NCBI GenBank assembly: GCA_039707465.1
Contig: CM077643.1
Span: 325,567,919-325,631,918 of the forward strand
From: Rhabdophis nuchalis
Taxonomy: Eukaryota > Chordata > Lepidosauria > Squamata > Natricidae
Length of the DNA: 64,000 nt
Direction: 5' to 3'
Both the position numbers and the translations under genes were made by a program. Positions 2,270-44,017 of the stretch are shown one piece after another; positions within the stretch are counted from its first letter, which is position 1; every line of letters starts with the position of its first letter. The notes under the pieces were generated by a model that saw nothing but the letters and a program-made list of their open reading frames with translations, made no database searches and was not told where the DNA came from.

Positions 2270-2573
2270 CCAACCTCCAGTGGCGTAGCGTGGGGGGTGC
2301 AGGGGGTGCGGGCCGCACCGGGCGCAACATCTGGGGGGGCGCGCTCGCACTCGCAGCTCCCCGTCGCTTCGGGAAAGGGGATTGAGTAAGGCAGGAACAG
2401 CGGCAGCCGGGGAATGTGGCCACCGCCGCGGGGACCGGAGAAGCGTCGCCCGAAGCAAGAGCGGCTGCAAGAGGAGGCGTTTTCTCCCCGTCGCCCCGTC
2501 TTCTTCCTTGGGGAAAGGATCTTAGGGGATTTTTCATATTTTTATTAGTATTATTTCTCGGGCGGGGGAGGGG

Positions 2574-2937
2574 GGATCCAGAATCCAGGAAACCGGGAGG
2601 GGGCGGGAAATCGCAGGGAAAAGGAAGGGAGCTCGGCGGGCAGAAGGTGGGGAGAGCTCGCGCGTTCCAGCTGATTCAGCAGCGGTCTTGTGAATGCGTG
2701 GAGATGTAGCTGACAGGGCGGGAGAGGCGTCCTGCTCTCCGGATCGAAGGGAGGCCAGCTCTTTCGGGTACCTGCCGGCTGCGGCTGCCTCCCCTACCCT
2801 GCTGCCGTCGGATCTTCCTGCACCCCTCCTCTCCCCCCTTCCCGTTTCTCGCTTCCCCCCCGCTCCGCATGCTGCGCCCTCCCTGTCCTCGATGCCGCTG
2901 CTTCCTCCGGGGGAGGGCTAGAAAGACACCGAGAAGG
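2574..2937 (+). promoter_or_regulatory. Putative captured GC-rich promoter/5' UTR-like segment
   Basis: This part of the 470-bp extra block lies directly upstream of the NRG3-like start codon. It is GC-rich with many CpG pairs and pyrimidine-rich stretches, as in CpG-island promoters and leaders. The role is inferred only from composition and position. The adjoining GC-rich stretch 2340-2573, shared with the 371-bp sister, could belong to the same captured DNA. Confidence 0.35.
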
Positions 2938-3043
2938 ATGAGCGAAGGGGTTGCCTCGCCGCCGGGTGCCACAGCCGCTGCCGAGGAGGGGGCGGCGGCG
3001 GGCGGGGGCCCTGCGGCGGGCGATGGAGTGGAAGAGACTCGAG
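2938..3043 (+). pseudogene. NRG3: Neuregulin-3 N-terminus-like exon fragment inside a transposon
   Basis: An ATG in good context (GAAGGATGAGC) opens 35 codons. They show, in order, MSEG, ASPPGA, AAAEEG and AAAGGGP, followed by an acidic stretch. From memory, human NRG3 begins with the same ordered blocks: MSEG, ASPPGA, AEEG, then Ala repeats and GGGP. NRG3 is a membrane-anchored EGF-family ligand of ERBB4. The similarity ends at the transposon junction (CGAG | TGCTAAAATCC), well before the EGF domain or membrane segment, and the frame stops about six codons later. It cannot make neuregulin. Ala/Gly bias is a caveat, but the ordered non-repetitive blocks are hard to explain by composition alone. 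Confidence 0.55.
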
Positions 3044-3126
3044 TGCTAAAATCCAGGGGTTAGGGGGCACAAATTACTTGCCTTGCCCCGGGTGCTGACA
3101 ACCCACGCTACGCCACTGCCAACCTC

Positions 3127-6060: not shown

Positions 6061-6392
6061 GGACTGGCTGACTCTGCCCGCCCCTCCCCTGCCCTCCCAG
6101 GAGTCTCCACACAGCTGTTCATCATGCCAGGTAAGTGCAGGGCCTGTGCAGAGGCTCTGGGAGAGCAAAAAATGGGCCTACCGGAAGTACCGGACGTCCA
6201 GAAACAGGTGCGTTTCCAGCCTCCAGAGGACTTCCAGGGCTTGGGGGAGGACATTTTCACCCTCCCGGAGGGTCGAGAAAAGCTTCCGGAGCCTGACGAG
6301 GGTGAAACACCACCCCCTGCCACGTGGTGCAGGAAGCCGACTGGGCCACACCCCTATGACCACTCCCACCTAGCAACTGGGCAGAGAACCAG

Positions 6393-6833
6393 TTACATGC
6401 AAGACTGTCTCCTGCCCCATACATCCCTTAGACTGATACGCTCCCACAGAGAGGGTCTTCTCAGGGTGCCGTCGGCCGGACAATGCCGACTGGCAACACC
6501 CAGGGGAAGGGCCTTCTCTGTGGCGGGCCCTGCCCTGTGGAACAACCTACCCCCTGAACTCCGTACCATCACCGACCTCCGCCTCTTCCGCCAGTGTTTA
6601 AAAACACACCTGTTTCATCAAGCCGGCCTAACATAGCCTCCGCTGTGACTAGTATTAGATAGTTTTAAAATGGGGGATTTTAATTGGTTTTAGCGCAGGT
6701 TTGAATATTTAATAGGTTTTTAAATTTTGTATTTTGTATTATTTATATGTTATTTTAAATTCCTGTGCGCCGCCCTGGGTCCTTTTGGAGAAGGGCGGGA
6801 TATAAATCAAATAAAACTAAAACTAAACTAAAA
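6393..6833 (+). mobile_element. L2-clade LINE, 3' end
   Basis: The final ~78 codons of ORF2 are open (to about 6636, with SHREGLLRV and LPPELRT blocks). They are followed by the L2 3' UTR with the GCGCCGCCCTGGGTCC...GGGCGGGATATAAAT end and an AAACTA-rich tail. It is 5'-truncated at about 6393, where it entered the hAT-like element. Confidence 0.85.
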
Positions 6834-6859
6834 AATTTCAATCCCACCCCTGTGTGAGA

Positions 6860-7107
6860 GAGAATAGAAGCTAGGAACATCATTATACCAAAATGCAGAA
6901 GCAGAATTAGATAATGCTCAGGAAATCAGCTACAGAGAACTTTTACTGGATATTACTGGATTTGAGGATATTAACAACTGCATAGGCTCAGTAAAATTTG
7001 ATACCACTGTGGTGCCATGAATATTAATATGGGGAAGCCAAGAATTACAGTATCAATGATAACTTGGCATGGTATAAAACAGACTACAGTATATATACCC
7101 CACAGTG

Positions 7108-7147
<40 letters not shown>

Positions 7148-7819
7148 GACTTTGTTTTTTGCAGGGAATGTTGATAGTTTGAACAAATTCTTTCTTTGCA
7201 GAAAGGTGGGGGGTTGACAGAAATAAAGTACCAGGAAAAAGGATGTGATTGTTAAAGCTCTGTAATTAAAATATCTAAGAGCTTAGCTTGAGGTACAGTT
7301 GTAAATATCAGTAATGCATTTGGTAATCTGCAAACTTTAACATATGAAACAACCCCAAACAGGTGAAATTTATATATTTTTTCCTTTACCTAAATTTACC
7401 TTGTATAACTCTTCTAAATGATATTGGACAAATGCAACCATCATTTCTGAGGGAAAAAGGAATCAAAAGTCCTTTTTGGAATGGTAACGATTTGAATAAT
7501 TTCTTCCTCAAACTATTTTCAGTCGAAAGAGGCAAAAACTAGGAAGATTTGAGCAAAAAGCTGCTAACATTGCCTCAAGCTTGGTCTTTAAGAGCATTTT
7601 TTAAAATTTATTTATTTTCAATTATTAATGTGGTCATTTCAATTTACTTACAACCTGCTTTGTGCTGCATAATCCTGGGAATTAGTTAAATTTTTATAAC
7701 CAATGGTGGTTTTTTTAAATTTACACAATATAATCCCCTTAGAAAAGTTGAAAACCTTTCCTTTCTTTTTTTCCTCCCCTCCCCCTTTTTCTTTCTTTCT
7801 TTCTGGTGTATTTGTGAGG
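6860..7819. other. Unassigned AT-rich DNA with a (GT)n tract at 7110-7145
   Basis: Apart from an ~18-unit GT run and short pyrimidine runs near 7760-7803, I see no repeat ends or coding signal in this ~1 kb. Confidence 0.6.
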
Positions 7820-8401: not shown

Positions 8402-8745
8402 TAAAGGTAAAAAGGTAAATGCTTGGCCTGCCCAGTTATGTCCTGTTCTAGAGGCCATTGCTCATCTCTGTTTCTTAGTCAAGGGAGCCAGTGTTGTCTG
8501 AAGACCCATGATCATGTGGTCAGCATGACTGTACAGCAGGGATGTCCAAACTTGGGAACTTTAAGACTTGTGGACTTCAACTCCCAGAATTCCCCAGCCA
8601 GCATAGCTGGCTGGGGAATTCTGGGAGTTGAAGTCCACAAGTCTTAAAGTTCCCAAGTTTGGACATCCCTGCTGTACACCAAGACTCATGGAATGCTGTT
8701 ACCTTCCCACTGAAGTGTTACCTATTAATCTACTTACATGGAGAA
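8402..8745 (-). mobile_element. Sauria-type SINE, split by a MITE
   Basis: It begins with AAAGGTAAAAAGGTAAATG, the reverse of the Bov-B-like TTTACCTTTACC tail. It then follows the body of the better copies at 40388-40741, 45352-45707 and 57951-58307. The tRNA-like head is lost. The palindromic MITE at 8537-8671 interrupts it. Confidence 0.75.
8537..8671. mobile_element. Palindromic hAT-type MITE
   Basis: A near-perfect 135-bp hairpin with ends CAGGGATGTCCAAAC and GTTTGGACATCCCTG. The flanking 8-mers are CTGTACAG and CTGTACAC (7 of 8). The interrupted SINE predicts CTGTACAC as the original site. Confidence 0.92.
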
Positions 8746-16755: not shown

Positions 16756-16950
16756 CAATGTTTCTTCCAACAGACTGCTAAGGAAAGACTGCCTTTATAT
16801 ATTCATATGAGGAAATTTGTTTGGGTTAGTTAACTTTTGAAGTTTAAAGAGTGTGCTGAAAACCATATGCCAGGGGAATCAGAAATTCCAGGCAGGTCAA
16901 GTGGGTATAAAGATGTATTGCAAGATTAAACTTTCTACAAGAATCTGAAC

Positions 16951-17321
16951 CAGTGGCGTAGCGTGGGGGGTGCAGGGGGTGCGGGCCGCACCGGGCGCAA
17001 CATCTGGGGGGGCGCGCTCGCACTCGCAGCTCCCCGTCGCTTCGGGAAAGGGGATCGAGTAAGGCAGGAACAGCGGCAGCCGGGGAATGTGGCCACCGCT
17101 GCAGGGACCGGAGAAGCGTCGCCCGAAGCAAGAGAGGCTGCAAGAGGAGGTGTTTTCTCCCCGTCGCCCCGTCTTCTTCCTTGGGGAAAGGATCTTAGGG
17201 GATTTTTCATATTTTTATTAGTATTATTTCTCGGGCGGGGGAGGGGTGCTAAAATCCAGGGGTTAGGGGGCGCAAATTACTTGCCTTGCCCCGGGTGCTG
17301 ACAACCCACGCTACGCCACTG
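16951..17321. mobile_element. GC-rich hAT-like transposon, short form
   Basis: It has the same ends as the 841-bp element (CAGTGGCGTAGCGTGGG...CCACGCTACGCCACTG) and its own exact 8-bp duplication, ATCTGAAC (16943-16950 and 17322-17329). It lacks precisely the 470-bp block 2574-3043, joining GAGGGG directly to TGCTAAAATCC. Near-identity elsewhere implies a recent common source. Confidence 0.92.
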
Positions 17322-17329
17322 ATCTGAAC

Positions 17330-42447: not shown

Positions 42448-44017
42448 ATCAATCAATCAATCAATCAATATTTAATTTGTAAACCGCACCCTCTCCCCGA
42501 AGGGACTCAGGGCGGTGCACAGGAAATTAAAAAGCATATAAACATAAACAAATTATAAATATTTAAAATCCAATTAAGCAAACTATAACCCTGCGCTAAA
42601 ATCATTAAAATCCTTAAAACTATACCCCTTAAAATCCCGATTAAAACAATTTAAACATTCAGACTGAAGACTGGCGAGGTAGATTAGGCCAAGTCGGCCT
42701 GATGGAAGAAGTATAGAATAGAATAGAATAGAATATTTATTTCTATAACCGTGTCCTCTCCCTGAGGGGACTCGGAGCGGTGCACAGGGAGAAATTAAAA
42801 CAACATAAAATATATACATAGATAAATACAATAAAAACAAATTAAATCTAACTATCCCTGCACTAAAATTCCCATTTTAAAATTAACATTTCCTAACCCC
42901 TGAGGTAGAGACTAACCTAGGCCGGCCAAGCAGAAAAAGTGAGTTTTTAATTTCTGACGGAAGGAGCGGAGGTCCGTAGTTGTTCTAATGTCGGGGGGAA
43001 GGTCGTTCCAGAGGGCTGGGCCCGCCACAGAGAAGGCCCTTCCCCTGGGCGTCGCCCGCTGACAAAGTCTAGTGGACGGCACCCGGAGAAGTCCCTCTCT
43101 GTGGGAGCGAATCGGCCGGGAGGATGTATGGGGCAGAATCCAATCCCGCAGATAGCTAGGTCCCGATAAAGTAGGTCTTTAACTTTTGGCGGAAGGAGCG
43201 GAAGTCCGTAGTTGTTCTGAGTTCGGGGGGTAGGTCATTCCAGAGAGTTGGGCCCGCCACAGAGAAGGCCCTTCCCATGGGCGTCGCCCGCTGGCATTGG
43301 CTAGTGGACAGCACCCGGAGAAGTCCCTCTCTGTGGAAGCGAATCGGTCGAAGGGATGTATGGGGCAGGGTATGATCCGGCAGATAGCTAGGTCCCGTGC
43401 CATGGAGCGCTTTAAAGATGGTAATCAGCACCTTGAAGCGCACCCGAAAGGCCACAGGCAGCCAGTGCAGCTCGCGCAGGAGCGGTGTCACGTGGGAATG
43501 CCTAGAGGCTCTCAAAATTGCCCGCGCGGCCGCTTTCTGGACTAGCTGTAGTCTTCGTGTGCACCTCAAGGGAAGCCCCATGTAGAGAGCATTACAGTAG
43601 TCTAGACGGGATGTCACGAGTGCATGAGTGACTGTGTGAAGGGCATCCCGGTCCAATAGGGGACGCAACTGGCATACCAGGCGAACCTGGTAGAACGCCC
43701 CCCTGGCCACGGCTGTCACTTGATCTTCCATAGACAGCTGGGTATCCAGGAGGATGCCCAAGTTGCGTGCCCCATCCACAGGGGCTAGATGTTCACCCCT
43801 ATGGCCAGTGATGGAGTAAACTGGTTGTACCGGGATGCCAGAAACCACAGCCACTCGGTCTTGGACGGGTTGAGTTTGAGTCTGTTCCTTCCCATCCAGA
43901 CCCGCACGGCTTCCAGGCACCGGGACATCACTTCGACGGCATCGTTGGGGTGGTTCGGGGTAGATATGTACAGCTGCGTATCGTCAGCGTAGAGATGGTA
44001 CTCTACCCCAAAACCAC
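42448..44017 (-). mobile_element. L2-clade LINE copy, interrupted by another L2
   Basis: The outer copy has its 3' UTR at 42470-42712 (preceded by an (ATCA)n tail) and its ORF2 C-terminal half at 43168-44017, up to the YADD region (TACAGCTGCGTATCGTCAGCG reversed). The 3' end of a second L2 sits between the two pieces. Confidence 0.85.
42713..43167 (-). mobile_element. L2-clade LINE 3' end inserted in another L2
   Basis: A complete L2 3' end with its (ATAGA)n tail at 42713-42735, a 3' UTR (GTGTCCTCTCCCTGAGG) and the ORF2 end. AAGTA flanks both sides of the join in the outer copy. It has the same orientation as its host. Confidence 0.8.

Follow-up and report, generated by a model that had tools for sequence, protein, structure and literature searches.

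The window, by which we mean the whole 64-kb stretch of DNA analysed here, carries an 841-bp element at 2278–3118 that has perfect 17-bp terminal inverted repeats (TIRs) and is bounded on both sides by the perfect 8-bp target-site duplication (TSD) CCAACCTC. A 371-bp sister lies at 16951–17321 and bears a perfect TSD of its own, ATCTGAAC. Both had been recognised in an earlier note on this DNA, and both descriptions held. TIR matches in the window numbered 4, as compared to 0.05 expected, and a blastn search of the element against the window found no family copies beyond these two. The features of the locus are as follows.

2270–2277, no strand: left TSD CCAACCTC
2278–2360, + strand: hAT left arm, element positions A1–83, including the 17-bp TIR CAGTGGCGTAGCGTGGG
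2361–2518, + strand: captured NRG3 upstream DNA, corresponding to host L044:6245–6402, 558–715 bp 5′ of the ATG, at 99.4% identity
2516–3028, + strand: captured NRG3 upstream/5′UTR DNA and codons 1–30, corresponding to host L044:6537–7050, at 96.7% identity
2574–3043, + strand: block named by the earlier note, equal to the stretch missing from the sister; its edges differ from the capture edges
2938–3063, + strand: ATG frame of 30 NRG3 codons, 11 transposon-arm codons and TAG
3029–3118, − strand: hAT right arm, A752–841, with the TIR at its end
3119–3126, no strand: right TSD CCAACCTC
16943–16950, no strand: left TSD ATCTGAAC of the sister
16951–17321, + strand: 371-bp sister B with a private 470-bp internal deletion, joined at 17245/17246 (one base ambiguous)
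17322–17329, no strand: right TSD ATCTGAAC of the sister

The assembly comprises 348 contigs and 1.92 Gb, and the parent NRG3 locus, which is without the element arms, is found at another place in it. When the assembly was searched with the human NRG3 protein, the best match was NRG3 exon 1 at C3:111992962–111993729 (67% identity, E 7e-81). The last exon was found at C3:112929460–112929966 (65% identity, E 3e-62), on the same strand and 0.94 Mb downstream of exon 1; given that the two exon matches share one strand, they also support the human query sequence. No match to the element arms was obtained in the exon 1 locus (region L044; ATG at position 6960), the DNA of which aligned with element positions A84–241 (host 6245–6402) and A239–751 (host 6537–7050) at E values of 2e-78 and 0.0, respectively. 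The earlier note had asked for a separate NRG3 exon 1 locus with more than 80% identity; the locus on C3 exceeds 96%, and the true first exon lies there rather than at the very spot of the element, the placement that the note had named against its own reading. The NRG3 likeness could in principle be a chance product of an alanine/glycine-rich, GC-rich frame, as the peptide is of low complexity. A peptide-only shuffle test (score 90; 20,000 shuffles with mean 50.7, sd 6.5 and maximum 84) may fail when corrected for the selection of one protein out of all, the correction being an estimate, and this test was set aside as insufficient and superseded by the locus comparison. DNA identities of 99.4% and 96.7% to the real exon 1 locus speak against chance, which is the least credible of all the explanations considered here.

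The two NRG3 pieces, 2361–2518 and 2516–3028, overlap by three bases (AGG) at their junction, which skips 137 bp of the host locus. The captured NRG3 DNA is 2361–3028, running from 715 bp 5′ of the ATG through base 1 of codon 31 and amounting to 668 bp of DNA from an identified host gene. The capture had previously been equated with the GC-rich block at 2574–3043, but its real span starts 213 bp earlier and ends 15 bp earlier. On the right side, 3029–3061 resembles the right arm of three other family members (L099, L105 and L108) with single-base differences, while a near-identical left arm, starting CAGAGG, is found in members without NRG3, such as L107. The ATG frame, which starts MSEGVASPPGATAAAEEG, had been described as NRG3-like. 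This is true of its 30 NRG3 codons, but the residues past MSEGVASPPGATAAAEEGAAAGGGPAAGDG are those of the transposon arm, with no NRG3 there. Since the arms and the NRG3 DNA explain all 841 bp, the element is non-autonomous and free of transposase. The repeat AATCCAGG, common to the start of the block and the right arm, was taken for chance. No match was obtained in an Rfam search of the window, in a PDB search with a 39-residue frame or in a search of a phage collection. One scan of viral contigs for the TIR was empty, and another returned three single 17-mer matches, which we took for chance.

Elsewhere in the window, a near-perfect palindrome occupies 8530–8678 (two 73-bp arms, 100% complementary, with a 3-base spacer). 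At 42946–43397, a 232-bp unit forms a tandem pair with 87% matches and overlaps an ORF that we take to be reverse-transcriptase-like.

The sister had been regarded as the form lacking the captured DNA, that is, as ancestral, and the capture itself had been equated with the 470-bp block. The arithmetic behind this view is correct, as 841 minus 371 is exactly 470, and the block is flanked by no duplication; the two elements differ at only 6 of the 371 shared positions, apart from the 470-bp stretch with its one-base edge ambiguity. However, the NRG3 homology begins at 2361 and continues across the left edge of the block, the right edge of which falls within the transposon arm. The sister itself retains host 6245–6402 (17034–17191) and host 6537–6594 (17189–17246), and because it carries NRG3 DNA, it is not a pre-capture element. 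The 27-base deletion junction of the sister occurs once in the 1.92 Gb, as compared to 356 occurrences of the internal host junction common to the intact copies and the sister; uniqueness in the genome points to a private deletion. At the subfamily-diagnostic bases (positions 106 and 792), the sister agrees with two copies sampled through their TIR, and not with the 841-bp copy of the window. An ancestral sister is very improbable, and we read the sister as an independently inserted copy with a private 470-bp deletion.

Two types of elements carry NRG3 DNA. The first type comprises the window-like elements, and the second has the NRG3 5′UTR and typically codons 1–168 within the same kind of arms. 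Genome-wide, we counted 356 exact internal junctions of the first type (178 + 178), 33 exact left junctions of the second type (32 within regions already read and one new) and 1946 exact copies of the right TIR, with 0 in the reversed control in each case. As exact patterns overlook mutated copies, these counts are lower bounds. Among the two NRG3 types, the first outnumbers the second.

A search with the block gave 440 first-look candidates, of which the best 40 matched at 98–100% identity. The first-type sample consists of 30 of these best 40 of 440, the window copy among them, and both TIRs were found in 29 of the 30, spaced 811–844 bp apart. As a measure of divergence, this sample is skewed to the subfamily of the window copy, and two TIR-sampled copies belong to another subfamily. 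In the protein search, 62 of the 105 candidates were scored; two fell in the real NRG3 gene, and the other 60 were spread over 58 separate regions, all 58 of which matched NRG3 exon 1 DNA at 91–99% identity. These second-type loci start at host 6796–6888 and end at 7204–7463, mostly covering 6825–7463, with several starting from 6796 and a few shorter. Both TIRs were present by the pattern used in 47 of the 58 loci, leaving 11 without.

Over the 88 loci, including the window copy, the TIR pair was present in 76 and absent by the pattern used in 12. Perfect 8-bp TSDs flanked 71 of the 76 two-TIR elements and were imperfect in five; 70 of them were distinct, since two second-type loci on C13 (L038 and L050), which may represent a local duplication, carry one common TSD. 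The start CAGTGG, which makes the TIR perfect with respect to the right end, occurred only in the first type (29/29, as well as L106 and L114). The other elements read start with CAGAGG, and the second type has CAGAGG in 46 of 47 and CAGAGA once. The 8-bp TSDs and the short CAG…CTG TIRs, perfect and 17 bp long in the window element, are those of the hAT superfamily, and an identified, element-free parent locus, an interior without transposase and multiple copies with distinct TSDs are the marks of a Pack-hAT. The proposal of the earlier note, a vertebrate Pack-type hAT with the NRG3 leader and start codon, is therefore supported by the locus match and by the copies, and the further TIR-bounded copies that it had anticipated are many. 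One exon in many dispersed copies might also be expected if NRG3 had given rise to processed pseudogenes or been segmentally duplicated, and the TSD shared by the two loci on C13 would suit a duplication. However, the copies contain DNA 5′ of the ATG and stop at arm junctions within exon 1, they bear the TIRs and TSDs in the numbers given above, and every place hit by the 62 scored matches (of 105) is in exon 1, except the last exon of the real gene. This origin, refuted for the 76 two-TIR elements, is as hard to believe as the ancestral role of the sister.

We favour two separate captures from the NRG3 exon over a single one, and hold this to be probable from a comparison of the two types. 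In their 226-bp NRG3 overlap, the second-type consensus is identical to the host, the first type has three substitutions of its own and one gap, and the two consensuses have no derived change in common. Three of 65 left-arm positions distinguish the two types, and the two left arms resemble different NRG3-free members, the second-type arm being nearly identical to that of L107 and the first-type arm being nearest to those of L095, L100 and L111. One long NRG3 capture, followed by different internal deletions that gave rise to both types, seems rather unlikely, but it is by no means as remote as the explanations dismissed above. The types do overlap in 226 bp of NRG3 within the same kind of arms, and internal deletions do happen, as in the sister and in L082. 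Furthermore, the first-type base at host 6974, found in 29/29 first-type copies, is present in 2 of the 35 readable second-type copies (12 were unreadable), which fits CpG decay and also sharing. Against a single capture, host 6245–6795 was matched in none of the 58 second-type loci read, and the 29 two-TIR elements of the first type, at 811–844 bp, are too short to have room for host 7051–7463 as well. Among the loci read, none had both outer parts of the host segment in one element.

To describe the wider hAT family, we read 20 of the 100 right-TIR matches listed (of 1946), all on contig C1. Of the 18 informative members, three belong to the first type, L109 in truncated form; interior C occurs in four, interior D in three and interior E in two; four overlap a transposase-bearing copy or share long right-end sequence with it; and a 275-bp element and one further member account for the rest. 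At least three other GC-rich interiors are thus present among these 18. In the two-ended sampled members (10/10), the interior GC content was 0.65–0.73 and the CpG observed/expected ratio 0.65–0.89, as compared to 0.42 and 0.37 for the whole window; the pieces read of L102, L103 and L113 had a GC content of 0.57–0.61. Interior C (L096, L097, L104 and L111) is GC-rich and 0.54–0.58 kb long. In L104, it ends in the frame MRALFHLFLLLLWFESGARDYLGE, which is signal-peptide-like, and L096 and L097 are similar by eye. Interior D (L095, L098 and L100) is also GC-rich and comes in two lengths, 657 bp and 359 bp, the shorter of which looks like a deletion derivative of the longer. Interiors C and D are candidate host captures. 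The frame of interior E (L102 and L103) starts MPRRKQQAPRRSA and is followed by GTAACC, in which we presume a resemblance to the opening exon and splice donor of a Teashirt (TSHZ) gene; no text on the Teashirt N-terminus came up in the literature. The 275-bp member, L107, looks like a hAT-derived MITE.

As for the transposase, L105, which is one of these four right-end sharers and has the right arm of the window element, encodes the domain PF05699 Dimer_Tnp_hAT (E 4e-13), and L099 aligns to L105 with 98.7% identity over 608 bp. A Pfam search with a 231-residue frame from L101 gave no match. The members read contain transposase in pieces only, none of them whole, and none combines both ends with a whole transposase. 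That one vertebrate hAT family repeatedly captures the CpG-island 5′ ends of host genes, bursting each cargo to many copies, is a tentative reading, to which we give somewhat less than an even chance. If it is true, the cargoes would include NRG3, taken twice, a Teashirt-like first exon together with its splice donor, and no fewer than two others, and the family would act as a system that disperses promoters and first exons throughout the genome.

Judged by their substitutions, the copies look neutral. Changes from the second-type consensus amounted to 307 nonsynonymous and 130 synonymous, as compared to 278 and 159 expected, with four stops, and thus gave no sign of purifying selection on the second-type copies. 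The consensus frame of this type runs through the NRG3 codons and onward through the right TIR without a stop, so that chimeric frames exist by default. An ATG-started frame of at least 177 codons is present in 24 of the 47 second-type copies, and the start is absent by the pattern used in four of the 47.

The elements might also spread a working NRG3 promoter, with transcription starting at the insertion sites, as the earlier note had suggested. In line with this, the interior is host upstream/5′UTR sequence, its CpG observed/expected ratio is 1.01 (2278–2572) and 0.78 (2573–3042), as compared to 0.18 and 0.14 in the flanks, and the second-type consensus frame is stop-free within the element. 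The decay of the CpG sites argues otherwise. Counting only transitions present in one or two copies, with L050 dropped from the second type as a likely duplicate, the rate at CpG sites was about 12-fold that at non-CpG sites for the first type (22 and 8 changes; bootstrap 6–33) and about 4-fold for the second (134 and 117 changes; 3.2–5.3), the exclusion of changes common to more than two copies being one that also removes recurrent CpG hits. An apparently slow CpG decay in the first type, obtained when all differences were counted, was reversed by this restriction and was rejected. Fast CpG decay, as expected of methylated DNA, argues against active promoters, and the second type displays no synonymous excess. 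On the evidence of the substitutions, the decay speaks against active germline promoters, leaving room for tissue-specific use. The promoter-spreading role finds no support in the sequence, and we consider it improbable.

We are confident in a joint explanation, in which the window element is a non-autonomous Pack-type hAT carrying NRG3 upstream/5′UTR DNA and the start of exon 1, and in which its origin is as follows. A double-strand break or a stalled fork inside a hAT copy would have allowed host DNA to enter during repair, and the scars suggest that this repair proceeded by template switching at microhomologies of 1–3 bp. The AGG overlap at the internal jump points to template switching, as do the right junctions of L070 and L071, which consist of short back-and-forth repeats of cargo and arm. 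In L059, the right end is duplicated. Transposase from full-length relatives would then have moved the elements in trans. Most copies would now be neutral passengers, and the likeliest effects would be incidental, namely chimeric frames that run out of second-type copies and, potentially, a source of small RNAs directed against NRG3. The proposed capture route matches that of Tan et al. (2021; PMC8277862) for multicopy Pack-TIRs, for which their survey infers template switching followed by transposition (FoSTeST).

The hundreds of copies, together with a second type from the same exon, provide a junction series for testing the capture mechanism. They also raise the question of how the host handles a neuregulin exon that is repeated hundreds of times in near-identical form. 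Host silencing of the copies could spill onto NRG3, or the copies could serve as raw material for chimeric first exons. In the accessible parts of the literature on NRG3 promoters and isoforms and on gene capture, we found no report of NRG3 capture by transposons.

In plants, cut-and-paste transposons commonly capture genes. Among vertebrates, the Helitrons of bats have captured host 5′ ends and amplified them to high copy number. Helitrons are rolling-circle elements without TIRs or TSDs, whereas the window element is a cut-and-paste hAT. The hAT-derived MITEs are short, have terminal arms and are mobilised in trans; the window element differs from them by its 668-bp cargo from an identified host gene.

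The other close systems are TIR elements, compared here as far as the accessible parts of the sources extend. The plant Pack-TYPE elements and Pack-MULEs (PMC8903248) are likewise non-autonomous, have TIRs, and capture coding DNA and shuffle it, but here the host is a vertebrate, the arms are those of a hAT and a gene's 5′ end supplied the cargo. The transduplication by Turmoil-1 of C. elegans (PMC2572040) also concerns an animal TIR element with host coding sequence; in Turmoil-1, the host sequences reside in the inverted terminal repeats, whereas here they lie in the interior of a hAT. Across 100 animal genomes, the survey by Tan et al. (2021; PMC8277862) describes 370 Pack-TIRs, of which 208 are hAT and most are present as single copies, and its Pack-hATs, the nearest of these systems, resemble the window element in having TIR ends around a host copy with an identified parent locus. 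Multicopy Pack-TIRs in the 100 reference genomes number four, three in frog and one in alligator (PMC8277862). In one frog case, a 291-bp piece of the CAPSL 5′UTR in hAT-N8_XT is found in three copies with three distinct TSDs, and the fly family Ssk-FB4 has four copies (PMC8277862). For comparison, 36% of the rice Pack-MULEs are multicopy, as cited in the same paper (PMC8277862). In contrast to the animal Pack-TIRs of the survey (PMC8277862), a single cargo here reaches a count of at least 356 by exact junctions, a second type draws on the same exon, and relatives hold other GC-rich interiors. The window element is thus of a known kind, a Pack-type hAT, at an extreme copy number, far above the multicopy cases of the animal survey as accessible (PMC8277862).
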